Positions 14,475 to 37,282 of a stretch of 39,686 bases of DNA are shown here, piece by piece. The notes under the pieces are model-generated. The model saw only the letters and a list, made by a program, of their open reading frames with translations, ran no database searches and had not been told where the DNA came from. Source of the stretch: an uncultured bacterium (GTDB lineage: Bacteria > Verrucomicrobiota > Kiritimatiellia > RFP12 > UBA1067). The stretch's first letter is position 1. Each line of letters starts with the position of its first letter. The position numbers were made by a program, and so were the translations under genes. The stretch spans positions 1 through 39,686 of the forward strand of contig CADCOC010000020.1 of the NCBI GenBank assembly GCA_902802945.1. The letters run 5' to 3'.

Positions 14475-15839
14475 GTGAATACGACAAGAAGAGAATTCAT
14501 TGCGGGCGGCGCGGCCGCTGTGGGAGCGGGATCTGTTTTCGCCGGCGCTGCCTTGCCGAAGGTGCGCATCGCGGCGATCGGCACGGGCGGACGCGGACAC
14601 ACCGACCTGCACAGTTTCCTGCGTTCGGGCCTCTGCGAGATTTCGTGCGCGGCCGATGTCTATGCCCCCAACCTCGAATGGGTGCGCAAGGAGCAGCCGC
14701 AGGCGAAGATCTACGCCGACTACCGGAAGATGCTCGCCGAGTGCGCGGGGCAGTACGACGCCGTCTCGATCATGACGCCCGACCATTCGCACGCCGTCGC
14801 GTTCTTCGAGGCGAGCAAGTACAACGTGCCCGTCTATTGCGCGAAGCCGCTTGCCCACACGATTGACGAGACGCTTGCGATGATGCGCGTCGCGCGCGAG
14901 AAGAAGATCATCACGCAGGTGAGCCACCACGGCAACTCCGAACCCGGCACGCCGCTTCTGCGCGAGTGGATGGAGAGCGGAATCTTCGGCAAGGCCCTGG
15001 AGGCGCACATCTACTGCTGCGGGCCGAACGGCTACTACATGGAGCCGCCGGAATGGGCCAACCAGCCGGCAGAGCCGCCCAAGGGACTGGACTGGGAACT
15101 CTGGCAGGGACCCGTGAAGCGCCGTCCGTACATCAAGGGACTCGTGCCGAGGGGACGCTGGCGCTCGTGGGCGATGTACGGCGAGGGCTGCCTCGGCGAC
15201 TGGAGCTGCCACCTGATCGGACCCGTCGCCACCGCGCTTGACCTCGACATGCCCACGGCCGTGACGATGGACGACGAACGCGGCTTCGACCCGAAGAAGA
15301 CGCCGTTCTCGTTCCCGCATGCGGCGCACTACAAGTTCGAGTTCCCCGCGAAGGGGAACCGGGGACCGTTCATCTACCACTGGTACGAATGCATGCGTCG
15401 CGCGCCGCGTCCCGCCGCCTACGAGCCCGAGCTGCCGTTCGACACGGTGAAGTCGCGCTGGTGCGGCGGCTATCTCGTGTGCGAGAAGGAGACGCTGATG
15501 TTCGGCGCGACGGGCGCCTCCGGCCTGCGCGTGATCCCTCATTCGCACATGAAGGCCATCAAGCCGCATCTGCCGCCGAAGAAGTACCCGCGCTACAAAG
15601 ACCACTGGGCCGAGTTCCTCCAGGCCGTCCAGCAGAAGCGTCCCGCGAACACGCCGTTCGAGATGGGCGGCAAGTTCACGATCATGGGCTTCATGGGCAT
15701 GATCGCCACACGCTTCCCCGGACGCCGCCTCACGTTCGACCCCGTGACGATGCGCTGCACGAACATTCCCGAGGCGAACGCGCTCATGGGGCCCGATTGG
15801 ACCGACGCCGCCCGCGCCGAGTACGGACGTTTCCTGTGA
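14475..15839 (+). CDS. Exported Gfo/Idh/MocA family oxidoreductase
   Basis: The 454-residue protein begins at a GTG (14475) with AGGAG 8 nt upstream and a Tat signal (TTRREFIAGGAAAVGAGSVFAG). It has the NAD-binding GTGGRG (36-41), the lysine motif YCAKPLAH (Lys124; the usual EKP reads AKP here) and the catalytic-type GDWSCH (241-246). The family oxidises or reduces sugar hydroxyls with tightly bound NAD(P); Tat export is typical because cofactor is loaded in the cytoplasm. Its stop overlaps the ATG of the GH2 gene (tgATG), so the two are translationally coupled. Substrate unknown. Replacement of the Glu in EKP by Ala is worth checking but occurs outside the transferring Lys. Confidence 0.88.
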   Translation: MNTTRREFIAGGAAAVGAGSVFAGAALPKVRIAAIGTGGRGHTDLHSFLRSGLCEISCAADVYAPNLEWVRKEQPQAKIYADYRKMLAECAGQYDAVSIMTPDHSHAVAFFEASKYNVPVYCAKPLAHTIDETLAMMRVAREKKIITQVSHHGNSEPGTPLLREWMESGIFGKALEAHIYCCGPNGYYMEPPEWANQPAEPPKGLDWELWQGPVKRRPYIKGLVPRGRWRSWAMYGEGCLGDWSCHLIGPVATALDLDMPTAVTMDDERGFDPKKTPFSFPHAAHYKFEFPAKGNRGPFIYHWYECMRRAPRPAAYEPELPFDTVKSRWCGGYLVCEKETLMFGATGASGLRVIPHSHMKAIKPHLPPKKYPRYKDHWAEFLQAVQQKRPANTPFEMGGKFTIMGFMGMIATRFPGRRLTFDPVTMRCTNIPEANALMGPDWTDAARAEYGRFL

Positions 15840-17548
15840 TGCGTATGATGAAACAGATCTGCATGATTGTGGCCGTGGCGACACTGTGCGCCGCGACGTG
15901 CCTGGGCGCCATCGACCTGAACGGGTCGTGGGAGTTCCGCTTCGAGGAGGGCAAGACGCTCGAGACGTCGAGCGGCGCGGATTTCGCCGCGACCGACAGG
16001 ATGTCCGTGCCGGGATGCTACGACATGCAGCCGAAATGGCTCTGCAAGCGCGGCACCGGTCTCTACCGCCGGACGTTCAGGCTGGAGAAGCCCGTTGAGG
16101 GCGCCTGGATCGTCGTGGACGGGATGGGTCTGCGCGCGAAGTTCGCTGTAGACGGGAAGCAGGTCGGCGGAATCCAGCCCTATCCATGGGCCAGGTTGGA
16201 GATTCCGACCGGCCCGCTTGGAGCGGGCGAGCACACGGTATTCGCCGCCGTCGACAACGTGCTGGACTGGGACACGCAGAAGCTTGCGCTTCCGAATTAC
16301 GACTTCTATCTCTACGGCGGGTTCTTCCACGGCGTGTCGCTCTCGCTGGACAACCGCAAGCTCTTCGTCCGGACCCGCGACTACAAGACAGGCACCGTTG
16401 AGATTGAGGCGGTGAACTTCGGGAAGCGCGACTTCGAGGGAAAACTTCTCTTCGACGGCAAGAACGAGGTCGTGGCCGTGTTCAAGGACGGCCGCGCGAC
16501 GGTGAAAGTTCCGGATTTCAAGCTCTGGTCGCCCAAGTCGCCGAATCTCCATACCGTGTCGTTGGACGGCGACGTGTCCGCTCGATTCGGCATCCGCGAG
16601 ATCAAGGCCGAGAAGAAACGGCTGTGGCTGAACGGAGAGGTGCTGTTCCTCAAGGGGGCCAACAGGCACGAAGCCCATCCGCAGTTCGGCGCGGCCACGC
16701 CGGAGGTGCTGATGGTCCAGGACATCCAGCTCCTGAAATCCCTGAATGGCAACTTCTTCCGCGGCAGCCACTACCAGCAGTGCCAGCGTTTCCTCGACTA
16801 CTGCGACGAGATGGGGGTGCTCGTCTGGGATGAGTCGCTCGGCTGGGGCAACAATTCCAGGCAGATGTCCGACGGCGAGTATTTCCGCCTTCAGGTGGAG
16901 CAGACGCGCGAGATGGTGCGTGCGAGCTTCAACCACCCGTCCGTGATAATCTTCGCGTTCCAGAACGAGAACCAGTCGCAGACGAAGGCCGGGAAGAAGC
17001 TGAACGACGCGCTCATCGAGGCGATCAGGTCCCAGGATTCGGGCCGTCTCGTGACGTTCGCCTGCAACCATAACGACAACGACATCTCGAACGCGAACAC
17101 CGATCTCGTGTCGTTCAACGCCTATCCCGGGTGGATCGGGTCCGACGCCGGCACCCTCGAAAACCAGAAGCGCCTCATAGACGAAACGGTGACGAAGATC
17201 GTCAGGCGTTACCGCACGCTCTATCCCGAGAAGCCGATCATCGCCTCGGAGATGGGAACTGTCGCCATCTATGGCCACCATGACCCGGCGGCAGGACAGG
17301 GCACCGAGGAGTTCCAGTATCATTACGACAAGGACGTCATCGACCGCATCTTCGCCGATCCGGAGCTGTCCGGCCTTGCGCTGTGGCATTTTGCCGACGC
17401 CCGCACCTACCACCGCGGAGGGTCCAACATCCGCGTGAAGCTGCTGGCGGAGAACCTGGCCGGGCTGTACGACGGATACCGCAGGGCGAAGATGTCCACG
17501 CAGGTCGTCCGCGAGGGATTCTCCCGCAAGGCCGCCGGCGAACAGTAG
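15839..17548 (+). CDS. Exported glycoside hydrolase family 2 (beta-galactosidase-like)
   Basis: The 569-residue product has a signal peptide (MRMMKQICMIVAVATLCAATCLG), a sugar-binding jelly roll (about 25-170), an immunoglobulin-like domain (about 172-255) and the TIM barrel (about 260-550). The acid/base glutamate is Glu377 in IFAFQNENQS and the nucleophile is Glu471 in IIASEMGT, as in GH2 enzymes. It cleaves beta-linked sugars (galactose, glucuronic acid or mannose; not decidable by eye). The start overlaps the MocA stop by one base; ATG at 15845 or 15848 is also possible. It is shorter than classic LacZ (about 1000 residues), like beta-glucuronidase-sized members. With the isomerase and oxidoreductase it forms a three-gene sugar-processing operon. 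Confidence 0.88.
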   Translation: MRMMKQICMIVAVATLCAATCLGAIDLNGSWEFRFEEGKTLETSSGADFAATDRMSVPGCYDMQPKWLCKRGTGLYRRTFRLEKPVEGAWIVVDGMGLRAKFAVDGKQVGGIQPYPWARLEIPTGPLGAGEHTVFAAVDNVLDWDTQKLALPNYDFYLYGGFFHGVSLSLDNRKLFVRTRDYKTGTVEIEAVNFGKRDFEGKLLFDGKNEVVAVFKDGRATVKVPDFKLWSPKSPNLHTVSLDGDVSARFGIREIKAEKKRLWLNGEVLFLKGANRHEAHPQFGAATPEVLMVQDIQLLKSLNGNFFRGSHYQQCQRFLDYCDEMGVLVWDESLGWGNNSRQMSDGEYFRLQVEQTREMVRASFNHPSVIIFAFQNENQSQTKAGKKLNDALIEAIRSQDSGRLVTFACNHNDNDISNANTDLVSFNAYPGWIGSDAGTLENQKRLIDETVTKIVRRYRTLYPEKPIIASEMGTVAIYGHHDPAAGQGTEEFQYHYDKDVIDRIFADPELSGLALWHFADARTYHRGGSNIRVKLLAENLAGLYDGYRRAKMSTQVVREGFSRKAAGEQ

Positions 17549-17692
17549 TGCGAGACGAAGATCGACGCCGCATGGGGGCGCTCCGAGGCCGTCAAGATCA
17601 TAAGTCCCGAGCGCAAGCGCGCGGCATGGGGACCAGAGGCCCAGATGCGTGCCTCCTTCAGCAAAATCCGCGCCCAGCTGTCGCCCAACTAG
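17549..17692 (+). pseudogene. Open 47-codon stretch in frame after the GH2 stop
   Basis: Directly after the GH2 TAG the same frame stays open to a second TAG at 17690-17692 and encodes a protein-like peptide (CETKIDAAWGRSEAVKIISP, then ERKRAAWGPEAQMRASFSKI). Base use matches the coding neighbours. It looks like the stump of a deleted gene whose end fused behind GH2, or a former extension of GH2 cut off by the TAG. No start or Shine-Dalgarno of its own is seen. Confidence 0.45.
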
Positions 17693-17739
17693 GGTATTTT
17701 TGATTTTTTTCTGCTGTGTGGCGGTGAACCACAAAATTA

Positions 17740-17748
17740 TGATATACT
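17740..17748 (+). promoter_or_regulatory. Extended -10 box of giant secreted protein 1
   Basis: TGATATACT is preceded by AAATTA, as is the corresponding box of the second giant gene (22247-22255). The distance from the box to the shared leader is identical in both genes (10 nt), so the promoter and leader are one conserved unit. Confidence 0.7.
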
Positions 17749-17758
17749 ACTTCCAAAC

Positions 17759-17797
17759 TTTGCGCCCCATTGTCGAGTGGCTTTGGTGTCCGCGAGG
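17759..17797 (+). promoter_or_regulatory. Conserved 39-nt mRNA leader, copy 1
   Basis: The sequence begins TTTGCGCCCCATTGTC and ends CGCGAGG. It matches 22266-22304 at 35 of 39 positions without gaps, while the DNA between it and the two start codons is unrelated. It should start within a few bases of the mRNA 5' end. GTCC-GCGA-GGAC at 17788-17799 can form a small GNRA-capped hairpin here. It may be a cis-regulatory RNA or a binding site for an RNA or protein. Confidence 0.6.
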
Positions 17798-17825
17798 ACT
17801 TTTTGATTCGATAAGGAACAACAAC

Positions 17826-20800
17826 ATGAAAAAACTGTTGGCTCTCCTCACCGCTGCAATTGGTGCAGTTACGGCATTCGCCGACGGCGAATCGCTTGCC
17901 GAGACGGGTGGATACGTGCCCGTCAATGCGCCCGGTCTCGCGTTTAAGAACATCACGCTCGCCGATCTCGGCACGACCTGGTTCCCGTCAGTTACAAAGG
18001 GCGGCGGCTGGGCTGGCGGCGAAGCCAAAGTGCCGCTTGTCCTGCGAACGGAGGAGACGAGCGACGGCGTGCTCACCGCCGTAAAGTATCAGGCGCAGTG
18101 GAACGACGGCGGATATCTGAAGTGCGCGACCATCCGATTCACGAATGGAGAAGGCGGCGTGTATGCGCAGACCGTCTATGCCAAGTACACAGAAAGTGGC
18201 GTCGCCGCCGCCTATCTCACGGACTTTTCAGGAGGGACACAGGCTTCCTGCGCCGCGAGCGCGTCCGCCAATGGATACGGCTTCTGCAACCTGAAATTGC
18301 ACCAAAAGGGAGACCTTGAATCCATCAACATCAATTTCATCAGCGGTGAGGGGGCGAAACTTTGGACTTCCGATTCCGTCGGGCTTGCGGGTTATGCCGT
18401 CGGCGGAATGTTCTGGAGCCAGATGCTCGGCGGGAACAACAACACGCTACCGAGCGTGACCGCAGTCGGCAACGACAACGGGGCGTTCTATGCGGCGGTT
18501 TCTTCGCACGTGCGCATCTCGGGAACGCGCGGTACGTGGTCGTACGGCGGCTACACGGCGGCGAGCGACGTGCGCCACGGGTACATCGACGACGATGTTA
18601 ACAATTCCACGCCGACCATCACGATCTCCAACATCCCGTTCGACAGGTACAAGGTCATTGTCTATTGTTCCACGGACACCGGAGACGCCCGGTTCGGCTA
18701 CGTGTCGATCAATGGCGTGAACTACACTTCGACGAATACGGAGAAAGCGAATTCTGGCGATTTCGCAACCGTCGAGGGCACGGCGTCGTGGGGCAAGACG
18801 CAAGTCACGGGGGCGCCCATCGTTGGCGTGAACTGTCTTGTTTCGCCTGCGACGTCCGCACGGACGCTGACCGTCGTGGGGCACCGCATAAGTGCAGCTG
18901 AGCGCGGTTGCCTCGCGGCCATCCAGATCGTGAAGACGACCGAAGCCGCAGCCAACGAGTATTTGCTTGAGGTGACGGGCGACGTGACGTGGTCCGACCT
19001 CACCGACTTCACGGGCGGGGCGGCGAAGCGCATCTACGTCAACAACGACTACGGCGCGGCCACGATCACCTTCGACACCGCGGTTCAGGCGGCGGAGCTC
19101 GTCCTGACGGGCAGCGGCAGCACGGCACTGAAGTTCAATGACGCCGCGTACAACCAGATTACGGAATTCGGTTTTACGGGTCTGACGGGCGAAGTCGTGA
19201 TCGACGACGTGATCCGCGAGGCCGCCACGTTCACGCCGCCAGCGACCGGTACGCTGCGCTACAAGGGAACGGCGACGCTGACAGCTGCCCCCTACAATTC
19301 CGGCACGGTGGCGTTCCCGGTCGTCATCGATCAGCCGATGAGCATGAGCGAGTTCCAGCTGGCGGACGTCAAGACACTTTACGGTTTCGGCCCCAGCTGC
19401 AACGCCACGTTCTCGTCGCGTTTCGTTCTCGGTAACAACTCCGGTGCAAACCAGACCGTTACGCAGTACGGTGGTAGCATTGTGGTGAACGGGACTTCCG
19501 GTCCTGGCACACTCAACCAGGCGTCCGTGCTGCTTGGCCATTGGGGTGGCCTTACCGTCAATTTCAATACCTGCGGCGGAACCTTCACGGCATCGGGAGT
19601 CGCTGCCCGTCTCGGCCACACCGGAAAGTGCTATTGGACGATCGGCGACGGGGTGAGCGATGATTTTACTGCGAGGGTGACTTTGAAGGGCATTGTCAAC
19701 GAAAGTGCAGCCAACAACAATGGCGGTGTGGGATCGAAAGTCATCCTGCAGCAGGGTGGCACGCTCAACATCGGTTCGGATGGCATCAGCCTGCCAAACA
19801 GCTCGGTTCATTTCGCCGGCGGTAAGCTCTCCCTGGCGGGCACGGCGATATCCGCCCAGACAATCGAGGCCGTGGATGGAACCGATACGGAAATCGAGGC
19901 AAACACGGTGTCGGATCCGCCGGAGGCCCAGAGTACGCCTGTTTCGATTGTGTCGCCGATTTCCGGTTCCGGAAACATTACGAAGACCGGCAGCGGGACG
20001 CTGCGCATTTCGACTACGGCCACGGCCTCGGGGGAACTGGTGGTGCGCGAGGGCACGCTGGAATTGAGCGATGACGCGACGTGGGGCGGAAATCTCTCCG
20101 TCGGCGGAGGTGCCACCCTGCACATCAACCGTACGTCTGTGGATCCAACTTCGTCTCTCTATCTCAAGGTGTGCGAAGGCACGTTGTCGCTTGACGAGAC
20201 ATCGGAAACGCCGCCTGTCATCATGGTGAACGAGAGTCCTATTGACACGGACAGGTGGCAGCTGCTGGAAGGAACGGGAACATTCGTTAACAAGTACTTG
20301 AACGGCTACACGACAACGGCAACGGCGGATTTCGCGTTCAGCACCGCCGAATGGTACAATGCCCTGGGCAACTTGGCCGAAACCATTTCCTGGGAGCAGG
20401 AGCAGATCACGCAGATCACGGTGGATGCGGAGAATACTGAACCGGCCGTCGCGACGGTGGATGTCTGCGCCGCCAATGGGGATGCGGTTCCCCTGAACAA
20501 GTTCAAGGTCAAAGGATCGGGCGACCTTACGTTCGTCGCCGGAAAACAGGGGGGCGGCCCTCGCGCCAAGATGGGTGCAGTCGATGCCGATGAATATGAC
20601 TTCTCTGAATCGACGGGCCGGATTGACTACACGCTGCCGACGGGTGCTGCGCCCGTCATTTCCGGAACGAACACGGTCGTTTCCGGCGGCGGGTCGGGTA
20701 CGCCGACAGTGGTGGCGGGACAGACCCTCACGCTCGGCCCCTGGGGGGGGACTGAGGATGATACGACGTATACGTGCGACCTCTTCAGCCCTGCGGTTGG

Positions 20801-22130
20801 TTCGACGCTGATCTTCGCTCCTGGCGAAGGGAAAATACAGAAATCTCGTGGGTTCGGCGGCACCAACGTCGGGACGACGATTGGCGTCACCAACGGTACG
20901 CTTGTGGTTGACATGGCTGGCGCCGGCGAGTCCGTGTTCTTCGGTGCCAACTCCGTCCGGATCGACGCCGGCGGTATATTGAGCTTGGAGGCCAAGGACG
21001 CCCTCGGCTACAACAATGCCCACGGCCTGACGATCAACAAGGGCGGTGTTCTTTCCGTCAAGGTGCGCGACACGCTCAAGCGTACCGTGACCCTGAACGG
21101 CGGCACGATCGAGGTGCAGGGCGAGGAAAGCGGTCGGTCGCTCGATTTCTTCAGTGGCAACATCATAAACGTCACTGCAAACTCGTCCATTTGGGCAGTC
21201 GACAACGGGGGCGTGTCGAATCCGACCATCTGGTTCCGCAATGGCACGTCGGTCATCAACATCGACGACGGCGTAACGCTATCAAACAACATCACGTACG
21301 CATCGACTTCGAGCGGCGAGTCGAAGGGCGGTGTGACCGTTCGCGGCACGATGAACCATGGTAACGGCAACGGTATGATGGCGATGAACGGGTTCAATGG
21401 CAATCCGCTTACCTTCGTGGGACTCGCGACGATTGGTGAAAACGGCAAGCCGGCCATGTACGCGCTCAACTGCGAGCACCAGAACGGCACGTATGTCGTC
21501 AACGCCGGCAGCCGTCTGATGGGGTCTGGCTCGATCACGGGCTCGGGCGGAGTGACGCTCTCGGCGGCGAATTCCAAGATTTGCGGGGCGCTTACCGTGA
21601 ACAACGTGACGGCGGCGGCGGGCGGCACGTTCGGCGACCAGTGGAATCCCGTTTCCGCGATGGTGTCCGGCACGCTCTTCACGGCGGGCACCCAGACGAT
21701 CCAGAACGGCTCGCTCACGATTGGTGCGAACTGCGCAGTGACGAACGCCTCCGGCGTTGCCAATACTTCTGATGCGACGTTCAGCGTCGCGGCGGACGGC
21801 AACCTCGTCCTCGGCAAGTCGGTGTCCGTCAGCGGGCTGTCCGTCGCCGACGGCGGCACGGTGACCATTGCGGCCGCGCGTACCGGCTCGGCGAAGCTAA
21901 CGGTTGCCGGCACGGCCACGTACAACGGCGCGGTGAATATCGTCGTGGACTTCGGCACCGCGAACGTTCCGGGCGGATTCAGAGTGCCGCTTCTGGAGGC
22001 GTCGAATCTTCCCGCACCCTCCAACGTGTCCGTCACCGACAACGTCGGCGCGCACAAGTGGCGCACGGAGGTCATCGGGAACGTCCTCTGGGCGATGTCC
22101 GACGGCTCGTTAACCATCCTCATCCGGTAA
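17826..22130 (+). CDS. Giant exported beta-strand-repeat protein 1 (autotransporter-passenger-like)
   Basis: The 1434-residue protein has a signal peptide (MKKLLALLTAAIGAVTAFA), then a region unique to it, a domain at about 222-372 shared with the next giant protein (RISGTRGTW to GCLAAIQIVK), and long beta-strand repeats. A passenger-associated repeat of the PATR type is clear at about 712-766 (NITKTGSGTLRI, LVVREGTLEL). The end (about 1390-1434, GNVLWAMSDGSLTILIR) is short and contains no beta-barrel. So it is probably a right-handed beta-helix surface or extracellular protein exported by another route than classical autotransport. AAGGAAC precedes the ATG at 17826. Adhesion or glycan binding is a guess. 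Base use matches the neighbours. Confidence 0.8.
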   Translation: MKKLLALLTAAIGAVTAFADGESLAETGGYVPVNAPGLAFKNITLADLGTTWFPSVTKGGGWAGGEAKVPLVLRTEETSDGVLTAVKYQAQWNDGGYLKCATIRFTNGEGGVYAQTVYAKYTESGVAAAYLTDFSGGTQASCAASASANGYGFCNLKLHQKGDLESININFISGEGAKLWTSDSVGLAGYAVGGMFWSQMLGGNNNTLPSVTAVGNDNGAFYAAVSSHVRISGTRGTWSYGGYTAASDVRHGYIDDDVNNSTPTITISNIPFDRYKVIVYCSTDTGDARFGYVSINGVNYTSTNTEKANSGDFATVEGTASWGKTQVTGAPIVGVNCLVSPATSARTLTVVGHRISAAERGCLAAIQIVKTTEAAANEYLLEVTGDVTWSDLTDFTGGAAKRIYVNNDYGAATITFDTAVQAAELVLTGSGSTALKFNDAAYNQITEFGFTGLTGEVVIDDVIREAATFTPPATGTLRYKGTATLTAAPYNSGTVAFPVVIDQPMSMSEFQLADVKTLYGFGPSCNATFSSRFVLGNNSGANQTVTQYGGSIVVNGTSGPGTLNQASVLLGHWGGLTVNFNTCGGTFTASGVAARLGHTGKCYWTIGDGVSDDFTARVTLKGIVNESAANNNGGVGSKVILQQGGTLNIGSDGISLPNSSVHFAGGKLSLAGTAISAQTIEAVDGTDTEIEANTVSDPPEAQSTPVSIVSPISGSGNITKTGSGTLRISTTATASGELVVREGTLELSDDATWGGNLSVGGGATLHINRTSVDPTSSLYLKVCEGTLSLDETSETPPVIMVNESPIDTDRWQLLEGTGTFVNKYLNGYTTTATADFAFSTAEWYNALGNLAETISWEQEQITQITVDAENTEPAVATVDVCAANGDAVPLNKFKVKGSGDLTFVAGKQGGGPRAKMGAVDADEYDFSESTGRIDYTLPTGAAPVISGTNTVVSGGGSGTPTVVAGQTLTLGPWGGTEDDTTYTCDLFSPAVGSTLIFAPGEGKIQKSRGFGGTNVGTTIGVTNGTLVVDMAGAGESVFFGANSVRIDAGGILSLEAKDALGYNNAHGLTINKGGVLSVKVRDTLKRTVTLNGGTIEVQGEESGRSLDFFSGNIINVTANSSIWAVDNGGVSNPTIWFRNGTSVINIDDGVTLSNNITYASTSSGESKGGVTVRGTMNHGNGNGMMAMNGFNGNPLTFVGLATIGENGKPAMYALNCEHQNGTYVVNAGSRLMGSGSITGSGGVTLSAANSKICGALTVNNVTAAAGGTFGDQWNPVSAMVSGTLFTAGTQTIQNGSLTIGANCAVTNASGVANTSDATFSVAADGNLVLGKSVSVSGLSVADGGTVTIAAARTGSAKLTVAGTATYNGAVNIVVDFGTANVPGGFRVPLLEASNLPAPSNVSVTDNVGAHKWRTEVIGNVLWAMSDGSLTILIR

Positions 22131-22161
22131 CGGCACCACAACTTGCTGTTGTACGCTTGCT

Positions 22162-22200
22162 GTCTCCCCTCGTGGTACATCCGCCATACGAGGGGGAGAC
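22162..22200. terminator. Imperfect hairpin after giant protein gene 1
   Basis: GTCTCCCCTCGTGG (22162-22175) pairs with CCATACGAGGGGGAGAC (22184-22200) with a small bulge. An A-rich, not U-rich, stretch follows on the plus strand, so it is not a classical intrinsic terminator; it may protect the 3' end of the mRNA. Confidence 0.4.
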
Positions 22201-22246
22201 AAAAATTAAAATATTTTCCACCAGATGGCGTTTGGCGGGGAAATTA

Positions 22247-22255
22247 TGGTATAAT
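22247..22255 (+). promoter_or_regulatory. Extended -10 box of giant secreted protein 2
   Basis: TGGTATAAT preceded by AAATTA. It lies 10 nt before the conserved leader, exactly as in the first giant gene. No clear -35 hexamer; the region upstream is AT-rich (22201-22220). Confidence 0.75.
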
Positions 22256-22265
22256 ACAGTCTACC

Positions 22266-22304
22266 TTTGCGCCCCATTGTCCGGTGGCTATGGTGTTCGC
22301 GAGG
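22266..22304 (+). promoter_or_regulatory. Conserved 39-nt mRNA leader, copy 2
   Basis: The second copy of the leader described at 17759-17797. Differences are at leader positions 17, 18, 25 and 32. CCAT (leader positions 9-12) can pair with ATGG (24-27) in this copy, but only CCA/TGG pairs in the other, so the structure is not proven by covariation. Confidence 0.6.
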
Positions 22305-22331: not shown

Positions 22332-25300
22332 ATGACGACAAAACTGCTTAAAGGGGCGTTGACACGCATTGCCGCAACGGCAATCGCCGCCGTGTTCTTC
22401 ACCCCTGTTGCCTCCGCCGCAACGTCCAGTGGTGACATGGATAATCCTGTCACCGGCGAAACGAAAACATACGACTACAAATACGTTGGAAGCGGGACGT
22501 GGACTGCTTCGGATTGGCAAGATGCCAATGGCGCTGCTCTTGCCGCCGCACCTGGTACCGACAATTCAAATCTTTGGGGTTCGATGTTGGTCAACTGCTC
22601 GGATCCAATTTCAGTTGCGCAACTCAATGGCTGGGAGTTGCAGCTGGGCGTTTTTGGCGGAGCGAACGTTACTGTTGGAGAACTCGGCTACTGGACAGGA
22701 AGCGAATCCTGCTTCGCGGCGGTCGATAATGCTTCATCCCTTACAATCTCGGCAACTACAGGGAAAAACTGGAACAACACTGTCAAATTCTATGTCGCGA
22801 ACCGCAGCGGCATCACGTTCACCAGCGCTTTTGCTCCGGCTAATCCTAACGGAACCGGCAACATCAACTACTATCTTAAGGGATCGGGTTCCGTTACATA
22901 TTCGGATTCACTCGGCGGTGGCGTTGGTCATGTGATCAAGCAGGCGGATATTACGCTTTCTGGTACCTCGCAGATTGCTTACAAGCCGCTCGTATCGTTC
23001 ACATCGACCACCAAGACGTTCACCGCTGACGCGATAATCAAGCGCCTCAATTCCAGCGGCACGGACTTGGGTAACGACGCACGTCTTACTTCGGTAACGT
23101 CCGGCTATACAACTACTCTCACGACCGCTGACTCTGTCGGCACGTGCCAACTCGTCCAGACTTCCACGGGCATCGACCTCTACTGGGTTGACGGTGACCC
23201 CGCCAATCTGCCCGCTGCTACGGTTTACAAGCCCTCCATCAACATCAACTTCACGCATGACACAGCTCTTACGACCTCTGCTGATGTCGGTCTCGGCGAA
23301 TATGCCATTCCGGGCACTTCATGGAACAATCTTGTCGGCAACAACGGTTCGCTTTCGGCGTTGAACGCCGCCGATTCTTCTGGTGCTACATGGGCAACTG
23401 CGGCAAGCGTCACTATTTCAGGCACGCGAGGAAGTTGGCGCTGCAACAACCTCACGGCGGCATCCGATCTTCGCCAGGGCTACATCGATGAGGAGGCCGG
23501 TAATCCAACCCCCACTGTCACCGTCAGCGGAATTCCGTTTGAAAAGTATCGCGTGGTCGTCTATACAGCCACTGACACAGCAAATGTCAAATTCGGTTAC
23601 ATTACCATCAACGGCAAGAATTACACGTATGTTGGCGACGCACTTACTGAAGGTACCACGTCCTGGGGTGCCTCTGGCGCGAAGGACTCGGCCGAGCCGA
23701 TTGCTGAAGGCACCAACGTCCTTGTTTCGACTGTAATGCTCGGTTCGACGCTCACTGTTGTCGGGCACAGGAGCGGAAATGACCGTGGTTGCATCGCGGC
23801 TATCCAGATTGTCGAGTATGTTCCAGAGATAGGCGAAAACGATTTGAAGATTATTGTCCCTGGCGATACGACCTACACGGTCAACGAGACAAAGGAGCTG
23901 TCCGGCACGGTTTACGTGGTCGGTAGTGGTACGCTCACCCTCAACGGTTCCGCCAAGATTACCGCCGCAACCATCGACGTTGGCCCCAACGTTACGATGA
24001 ACGTCAACGCCGACCGCCTCGACGGCACCACCTTCGCAGGCTCTGGTACGGTTGTGTATGATGGGACTGCCCCTGCCACGGGCAAGGGCTGGACAGATTC
24101 CGACAACTGGGCTGGTACGGTCTGGCTGAAGAATTATGCAATTGCCGGACTTGATCCGGGTGATTTTGCTAACGCAAGATCTACACTGCGTCTGTCGCTT
24201 TGCACAGGCTATTTCAATAACGGCGACAACACCAAGACTTGCGCAGGAACGCTTGATCTTCAGAATGATACTGGATCTTATGCATTTTCTGTCGACAATG
24301 GATGGTCCACGAACGGCAAAACGATATTTGCCAAACTGACAGGTTCCGGCACACTTGGTGTTCAGACAAAGGATATTGCTCAGCGCTATGTATTCAAGGA
24401 TGCTTCAGGGTTCACAGGGACTGTCAATCTAGCGGGGCGTCCGCTACGAGTGATTTTCGGTGATGGAGAATCCCTTAGCCCTGAAGAAGGCTCAATTACT
24501 GTTGCTACAGGTGCTACGGTTACCATTGCATCCGGTAAGACATGGACTGCGAATAAAAACGGATTTGCCGTGAATGGTACGCTCAACGTCGATGGAACCT
24601 TGGCCAGTTCTCATACGACAAAGGCTGTGAGTGGCTCCGGCACGGTTGTGTTCACCGGCAGGGAGCCTACGCCAACTGGTAATGCGTGGTGGAAGAATTC
24701 CGCTTGGACGGGTACGGTTGAGATTAAGAACGCGACTCTGGCGAAAAACATCCATCTTGCCGACTATGGCAATACTGGATCAAAGGTTTGCATGAATGGA
24801 TCGTCTGCATATCTTCATGTTCAGAGTACCGGCAATCATGACATTGGCGAGTTGATCATTGGTAGCGATGGCTTTACCCAGGGCGGACTTTATTCTTCAG
24901 GGACGGTTTCCATTGTTCTCCCTTGCAAAGTTACTGGGACGGGAACATACAGCCTGACTGCGAGTGGTGGCGCTTTAAAGACGGTTTCCCTGAAGGGTGA
25001 CCTTTCGGAATTCAATGGAGCACTCTCGGCAACTGGAAACAACTGCCGTTTCGTTGTGGGGTCTACGACCCGGACTTTTGCTACAGGTTCAATAGTTGTC
25101 GGTTCAGATAAGGTCTTGAAAATCGCGAAAAACATAAATCCCACTGGCGGATTGTTCGTTGATGAAGGCGGTAAGGCTGTCATTTCTGGTGATGGATTTG
25201 TGTGGACAAGTGCAGGCATTACAGCTGATGGTGTTGTTTCGGTTACGAGTCTTGGCGGAAACATTGGCGGCGGCACTGCCGTAACGGTTGGTGATTCGGG

Positions 25301-26096
25301 CGTGTTTGAGGTGACTCGTTCTGATAGTTCTACTAATGACGATGGTGGTACTGATTATTCTCGTGTGACTGGTACAGGAATCATCCGGTTCGCCGGAGAC
25401 GGTTTTACGGTAATCTCACAGAGTATTCCGACAGCCCTTACGTTTGCAGCAGAGAAGGCGAATGGTTCTGTTGTGCCCATTGCGGGAGCCACGATAGGTA
25501 GTCTAACCGGTAGCAAGGGTTTTCGTTCTGACTGGGGCAACAATGGAGAGGGCGGTCGATACTTGACGATAAAACAGTCCACGGATACCGTTTGGGATGG
25601 GTCAATTTGTGTGGGTGGTGCTCATAGGTTGACCGGTGTGATCGTTGATCCGGGCGCGAGTTCTACTGGCACTCTTACTATGACTGCAACACAGACAGCC
25701 TCATCGACACTAACAGTCAACGGTTCCGTCAACCTCACGGGCACGTGGGTTGGTGCGACGACGGTTGCGGGTACGTTCGGCGGTACGGGTACGCTCTCGG
25801 GCAACCTCACGCTCACGGACGGCGCAACGTTCAAGGTGGACGACGCCACCAAGTACTTTAAGGTAAGTGGCGGATTGACGGCGGGTTCGGGCACAATCAC
25901 AGTAGACCTTCCCGCCGGAACAAAAACGACATTCCCTGATGGTGTCAAGCTCATGGACGTTACAGGAACGATAACCACAGGAGCGACGTTCAAAGTCCGA
26001 ATCGGTGGCGTGGAGAAGAGTTCGGTTGTCGTAAAGATGAAGAATGGTAGCCTCAAGGCCGTGTCGCTTCCCGGTACGAAGATCATCTTTAGATAA
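22332..26096 (+). CDS. Giant exported beta-strand-repeat protein 2
   Basis: The 1254-residue protein has a signal peptide (MTTKLLKGALTRIAATAIAAVFFTPVASA). Its residues about 356-500 match the shared domain of protein 1 (TISGTRGSW, AASDLRQGYIDEEAGNPTPT, GYITINGKNYT, GCIAAIQIVEY). An internal duplication is visible: GTVVYDGTAPATGKGWTDSD near 572 and GTVVFTGREPTPTGNAWWKN near 770, each followed by W-x-GTV. Beta-strand repeats fill the rest. The C-terminus (GSLKAVSLPGTKIIFR) has no barrel and ends in a short hydrophobic stretch plus Arg, as in protein 1 (LTILIR). AGAGGA precedes the ATG. From about 24100 to 25700 the gene uses clearly more A/T-ending codons than its neighbours, which hints at a mosaic origin. 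Confidence 0.8.
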   Translation: MTTKLLKGALTRIAATAIAAVFFTPVASAATSSGDMDNPVTGETKTYDYKYVGSGTWTASDWQDANGAALAAAPGTDNSNLWGSMLVNCSDPISVAQLNGWELQLGVFGGANVTVGELGYWTGSESCFAAVDNASSLTISATTGKNWNNTVKFYVANRSGITFTSAFAPANPNGTGNINYYLKGSGSVTYSDSLGGGVGHVIKQADITLSGTSQIAYKPLVSFTSTTKTFTADAIIKRLNSSGTDLGNDARLTSVTSGYTTTLTTADSVGTCQLVQTSTGIDLYWVDGDPANLPAATVYKPSININFTHDTALTTSADVGLGEYAIPGTSWNNLVGNNGSLSALNAADSSGATWATAASVTISGTRGSWRCNNLTAASDLRQGYIDEEAGNPTPTVTVSGIPFEKYRVVVYTATDTANVKFGYITINGKNYTYVGDALTEGTTSWGASGAKDSAEPIAEGTNVLVSTVMLGSTLTVVGHRSGNDRGCIAAIQIVEYVPEIGENDLKIIVPGDTTYTVNETKELSGTVYVVGSGTLTLNGSAKITAATIDVGPNVTMNVNADRLDGTTFAGSGTVVYDGTAPATGKGWTDSDNWAGTVWLKNYAIAGLDPGDFANARSTLRLSLCTGYFNNGDNTKTCAGTLDLQNDTGSYAFSVDNGWSTNGKTIFAKLTGSGTLGVQTKDIAQRYVFKDASGFTGTVNLAGRPLRVIFGDGESLSPEEGSITVATGATVTIASGKTWTANKNGFAVNGTLNVDGTLASSHTTKAVSGSGTVVFTGREPTPTGNAWWKNSAWTGTVEIKNATLAKNIHLADYGNTGSKVCMNGSSAYLHVQSTGNHDIGELIIGSDGFTQGGLYSSGTVSIVLPCKVTGTGTYSLTASGGALKTVSLKGDLSEFNGALSATGNNCRFVVGSTTRTFATGSIVVGSDKVLKIAKNINPTGGLFVDEGGKAVISGDGFVWTSAGITADGVVSVTSLGGNIGGGTAVTVGDSGVFEVTRSDSSTNDDGGTDYSRVTGTGIIRFAGDGFTVISQSIPTALTFAAEKANGSVVPIAGATIGSLTGSKGFRSDWGNNGEGGRYLTIKQSTDTVWDGSICVGGAHRLTGVIVDPGASSTGTLTMTATQTASSTLTVNGSVNLTGTWVGATTVAGTFGGTGTLSGNLTLTDGATFKVDDATKYFKVSGGLTAGSGTITVDLPAGTKTTFPDGVKLMDVTGTITTGATFKVRIGGVEKSSVVVKMKNGSLKAVSLPGTKIIFR

Positions 26097-37227: not shown

Positions 37228-37254
37228 GGGTGTCGGGGTGGTTTTGGTGAGGGG

Positions 37255-37282
37255 CAACGGGCGAGACGCCCGTTGTCCCAGT
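37255..37282. repeat. REP-like hairpin upstream of gyrA
   Basis: Arms CAACGGGCG (37255-37263) and CGCCCGTTG (37267-37275) with loop AGA, followed by TCCCAGT. Same element as 210-230, 282-302 and 1216-1236. It ends about 33 bp before the gyrA -10 box and so occupies the -35 or upstream region. Confidence 0.8.

Follow-up and report, generated by a model that had tools for sequence, protein, structure and literature searches.

In a gut-type bacterium, two adjacent genes whose products are giant secreted proteins begin with closely similar 40-nt leaders which, as sequence comparison indicates, are under purifying selection and which, according to folding models, most likely form a 5'-terminal stem-loop in the RNA. 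The leader is a local two-gene feature of this genome and not a genome-wide regulatory RNA. We tentatively favor the interpretation that promoter and stem-loop stem from an old tandem duplication and have been selected, and that the stem-loop would protect the long mRNAs from 5'-end-dependent decay.

The leader copies and their genes

The window, that is, the whole stretch of DNA analyzed (39,686 nt), belongs to a genome referred to here as G000; G010 and G013 are other species of the same genus. An earlier note on this DNA had described two 39-mers, 17759-17797 and 22266-22304, and their coordinates, their ungapped identity at 35 of 39 positions and their start 10 nt past the -10 hexamer (TATACT and TATAAT) were all reproduced. 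The conserved block is, however, 40 nt long, since C17758 and C22265 belong to it (Table 1). When the gene 1 region was compared with the whole genome by BLAST, the second copy was recovered with an E-value of 5.9e-12 over 64 nt, including the promoter. Judged by the spacing from the -10 box, the block probably forms the extreme 5' end of both mRNAs. The remaining type A UTR is kept in G013 and G010 and has no relation to gene 2.

Table 1. Coordinates of the paired genes, their promoters and their leaders in the window
Feature	Position	Strand	Remarks
Gene 1 promoter	17708..17757	+	extended -10 TATGATATACT; -35-like GGCGGT
Type A conserved 5' leader hairpin (predicted)	17758..17797	+	the earlier 39-mer plus C17758; predicted mRNA 5' end within about 2 nt
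Remaining type A 5' UTR	17798..17825	+	ACTTTTT...AAGGAACAACAAC, Shine-Dalgarno AAGGA
Gene 1, secreted beta-strand repeat protein, 1434 aa	17826..22130	+	TIGR02601 repeat; ATG 17826
Gene 2 promoter	22226..22264	+	extended -10 TATGGTATAAT
Type B conserved 5' leader hairpin (predicted)	22265..22304	+	
Gene 2, secreted protein, 1254 aa	22332..26096	+	domain in common with gene 1; ATG 22332

Both gene products have N-termini resembling signal peptides, which differ between type A and type B genes. The notion that the coding regions share only one domain agrees with the single strong domain found, which links residues 166-390 of the gene 1 product to residues 302-516 of the gene 2 product at 47% identity. 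In addition, a short hydrophobic-arginine tail (LTILIR, FTILIR, LSILIR, LLIRIR, KIIFR) ends all six giant proteins examined and is possibly a C-terminal sorting or secretion signal. Elsewhere in the window, a glycoside hydrolase family 2 gene (within 15389-17703) ends with a TAG at 17546-17548, possibly a premature stop, followed by about 50 in-frame open codons up to the next TAG, and REP-like repeated hairpins (CAACGGGCGGGACGCCCGTTGTCCCAGT) lie at 204-237, 276-309, 1210-1243 and 37254-37282.

Distribution of the leader

A pattern search allowing up to three mismatches found two copies only in the 5.8-Mb genome, a count that holds for this assembly, 93% complete by the tool's estimate, and a covariance model built from five copies again found two. 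Among 98 genomes searched, true copies occurred in just two others, both of the same genus: two in G013 and one in G010. These five copies scored E-values of 1e-14 or better with the covariance model, nothing elsewhere fell below 0.003, and the weaker matches that were inspected were located in unrelated sequence; matches with three mismatches in G076 and G079 look like chance and were not accepted as leader copies. An exact scan of an 84,980-species collection with a 20-base core recovered those two relatives again, the MAG RUG10619 and a Lentisphaerae MAG, and in addition two single matches, which we take as chance. No match was found in the viral contigs, phages and plasmids searched, and no Rfam family was matched at gathering score. 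Genes that carry the same domain (on contigs C30 and C65 of G000, and gene 0 of G013) have leaders different from the 40-nt block.

Copies were found solely in G000, G013 and G010, and within the range of these searches the element is therefore restricted to a single locus family in a single genus. The earlier proposal of a regulon-wide cis-acting RNA is therefore rejected for this genome assembly: the search of this genome and its relatives, which the note had recommended, placed the 39-mer not before several unlinked genes of one genome but in two adjacent copies, their same-genus orthologues and one G010 gene.

The shared promoter

The extended -10 pattern AAATTATGNTATAMTA has 16 matches in the genome against 0 for the reversed control, and the genes behind it, read from their translated starts, include some that we take to be adk, coaD and hisS. 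AAATTATGNTATAMTA is thus the general promoter of this genome, found at many unrelated genes, and its sharing by gene 1 and gene 2 is not special; the matching extended -10 boxes emphasized in the earlier note are real but mostly not specific to this pair. At these strong promoters the start codon often lies about 8-12 nt past the -10 box, as in the adk-like and coaD-like genes, which suggests many leaderless mRNAs. Homology with G013 upstream of gene 1 starts at 17708. Further upstream, a stretch around GGCGTT is partly common to gene 1 and gene 2, and between the G013 type A region and the type B region of the window BLAST detects homology over 79 nt, from about -40 to +39.

Age and constraint

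Both genes have orthologues with leaders in G013, where, as in G000, gene 1 has leader subtype A and gene 2 has subtype B. The duplication is therefore older than the split of these two species and the leaders have not been homogenized since, which upholds the view that simple recent duplication does not explain the identity. Between species, the leaders differ at 2 of 78 positions and the flanking non-coding DNA at 25 of 154 (Fisher p 0.0019). Between the paralogues, 4 of 39 leader positions differ, compared with 5 of 10 in the stretch from the -10 box to the leader and 19 of 28 between leader and ATG, where the DNA is indeed unrelated, as claimed before. This pattern is not what a recent block copy would leave, and it is expected if the -10 box and the leader are both under selection. 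Sequence comparison thus confirms the shared segment as conserved, constrained and located at the predicted mRNA 5' end. In this natural example, selection on a short stretch at the mRNA 5' end stands out cleanly, because its surroundings have diverged.

Conservation of this kind could also reflect plain inheritance, in which short conserved 5' UTRs are normal for giant genes and a duplication passed one on with no special common function. The giant genes of contigs C30 and C65, which share the same domain, are in keeping with this: their 5' UTRs are near-invariant in G000, G010 and G013, although synonymous differences (pS) are mostly 0.2-0.4. Their predicted folds are weak at most, and conservation alone is therefore no proof of a hairpin. 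This control indicates that a conserved 5' UTR is usual for these giant genes, whereas two genes sharing one is unusual. Against plain inheritance, the surroundings of the paralogues are now unrelated but leader and -10 box are not, which implies that something in the leader itself is held, and we regard this alternative as improbable.

Predicted structure

For the gene 1 leader alone (44 nt), the minimum free energy fold is a hairpin spanning 17758-17797 with 28 of 44 positions paired, and its ends coincide with those of the conserved block. All ten columns that vary among the five copies, which comprise only three distinct leader sequences within 17758-17797, are unpaired in this fold, and every paired position is the same in all copies. 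Of the 3884 dinucleotide shuffles that formed 14 or more pairs, none left all variable columns unpaired. In type B, some substitutions add pairs. The covariation test recommended earlier detected none, because no pair varies across the five copies. The predicted stability is ordinary, with z-scores of -1.4 and -0.5 for the two 44-nt leaders, and 1926 of 20,000 shuffles were as stable as the real gene 1 sequence.

In longer modeled transcripts the hairpin remains dominant in type A. When the coding sequence is included in type B, the model favors base pairs between GCGCCCC and the GGGGCG of codons 7-9, an interaction which would form later in transcription. The predicted hairpin leaves one unpaired 5' base if transcription starts where the -10 spacing alone places it.

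A conserved 5' module before changing bodies

The G010 gene combines the leader, remaining UTR and signal-peptide start of gene 1 with an unrelated body. Its promoter is separated from the leader, which is best explained by insertion of a transposon with the terminal repeat CCTGAATCCGTGAAGG and a 7-bp target duplication (ATACTAT) between -10 box and leader. The end of contig C150 consists of the gene 1 promoter and one transposon end (G010:C150:15237-15336), and the start of C241 carries the other end (L093:1-105). Once these flanks are joined, a join that we infer, promoter and leader align with those of gene 1 in the other species. The assembly broke inside the transposon, and owing to the target duplication a GATACT hexamer still stands at the original distance. 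Two other readings of this locus were dropped: that the G010 promoter is unrelated to that of gene 1 and only the RNA is conserved, since it is the transposon that parts promoter from leader, and that the promoter is invertible, as the repeat has both promoter and leader on one side and the 7-bp duplication fits a transposon.

Between species, gene 1 has a pS of 0.23 and gene 2 one of 0.62. Within gene 2 (window 22332-26096 compared with L058) it rises from 0.28 in the first 100 codons to over 0.6 in the body, and the gene therefore looks mosaic. Gene 2 between species and the G010 gene are candidate body exchanges behind a constant 5' module. The upstream neighbors of the giant genes at three loci differ among G000, G010 and G013, and in most comparisons homology there sets in a little before the promoter, as though each gene travelled with its promoter. 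In this genus, the 5' modules of giant secreted-protein genes stay conserved, and the bodies and genomic neighborhoods of these genes change. We consider it unlikely that the leader is a lineage-specific cis-acting RNA which couples the tandem giant genes and, together with the signal-peptide start, makes up the constant module behind which bodies swap.

Possible functions of the leader

In the explanation that we tentatively favor, a tandem duplication before the split of G000 and G013 would have supplied both genes with leader and promoter, and purifying selection would have preserved the leader as everything further downstream, from the remaining 5' UTR through the signal peptides to the bodies, diverged or was exchanged. 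The stem-loop, leaving about one unpaired 5' base on an mRNA of about 4 kb, may hinder 5' pyrophosphate removal and attack by RNase E/G and so stabilize the mRNA; possibly it also sets ribosome access. In E. coli, 5'-terminal structures are known to stabilize mRNA, and both RppH and RNase E depend on an unpaired 5' end (PMC3997798). An RNase E/G is encoded here as well (PF10150 at G000:C61, E 3.3e-98). A stabilizing stem-loop is favored because the predicted hairpin would begin near the second transcribed base, as in the known design of 5' stabilizers, and because RNase E/G is encoded.

We rank this stabilizing role above a role in binding a trans-acting regulator, either a small RNA or a protein, that would co-regulate the paralogues; in that case sequence, not stability, would be selected. 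Such a binding site would account for the near-invariance of the block, some unpaired bases included, and for the core that subtypes A and B retain despite an unrelated remaining UTR; it is nevertheless rather unlikely, given that the genome offers only two targets, that no known RNA family matches, and that complementarity to the bacterium's own 16S rRNA is no better than for shuffled leaders. Pairing between leader and 16S rRNA, expected from the E. coli molecule, was dropped, as the 16S rRNA of this genome differs and the duplex energies equal those of the shuffled controls.

The homology that continues from the promoter (-40) into the leader would also fit a composite promoter-operator, in which the block is a DNA operator for a transcription factor and overlaps the start site. 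The stretch from the -10 box to the start has diverged (5 of 10 positions) and the block has not, the end of the block is the end of the predicted stem, and no clear dyad symmetry beyond the hairpin is apparent by eye, so that we judge an operator quite improbable. Transcription attenuation, in which the 5' stem would compete with a terminator (GUCC-GCGA-GGAC-U5) in gene 1, is very improbable. The GTCCGCGAGGACTTTTT string is retained in all three type A copies, but the four-pair stem is weak (-5.8 kcal/mol) and missing from the terminator-scan listing. The earlier suggestion of anti-termination or attenuation accordingly suits gene 1, with its GUCC-GCGA-GGAC-UUUUU, and fails for gene 2, which lacks the U run. 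Two further candidates were discarded: a common translation-initiation string, AAGGAACAACAACATGAA, showed no clear enrichment (8 compared with 4 in controls), and a reading frame that runs through the leader, whether an upstream one or an N-terminal extension, is interrupted in G013 by in-frame stops before both genes.

Comparison with known systems

In our limited literature search we found no report of RNA-based regulation of surface proteins for this uncultured group. To our knowledge, the leader has no sequence relation to the 5' stem-loops of E. coli ompA and papA. As in these two (PMC3997798), the mRNA codes for a surface or secreted protein and would start with the predicted hairpin, and a 5'-end-sensing RNase E/G is encoded in the genome. 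The leader differs in its marginal thermodynamic stability.

The proteins themselves recall the autotransporter-associated beta-strand repeat proteins (PF12951 / TIGR02601), insofar as one TIGR02601 repeat in gene 1 exceeds the curated cut-off. They depart from them in that PF12951 stays under its cut-off, and in that the family libraries searched gave no match for gene 2 and no beta-barrel domain.

In the vsp genes of Mycoplasma bovis, a conserved 5' module likewise precedes variable surface-protein bodies, with a conserved UTR of 70 bp and an adjacent tyrosine recombinase (PMC3365025). In both systems, paralogues for surface proteins have divergent bodies behind a non-coding 5' stretch that is conserved, and type A conserves the signal-peptide start as well, as found in the G010 gene. 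Here, in contrast, there are two tandem genes, the A and B signal peptides are unlike each other, and around the locus the genes inspected gave no sign of a site-specific recombinase or an inversion. The present leader and its giant genes belong to this vsp-like kind, in which a conserved 5' module stands before variable bodies, with fewer genes.
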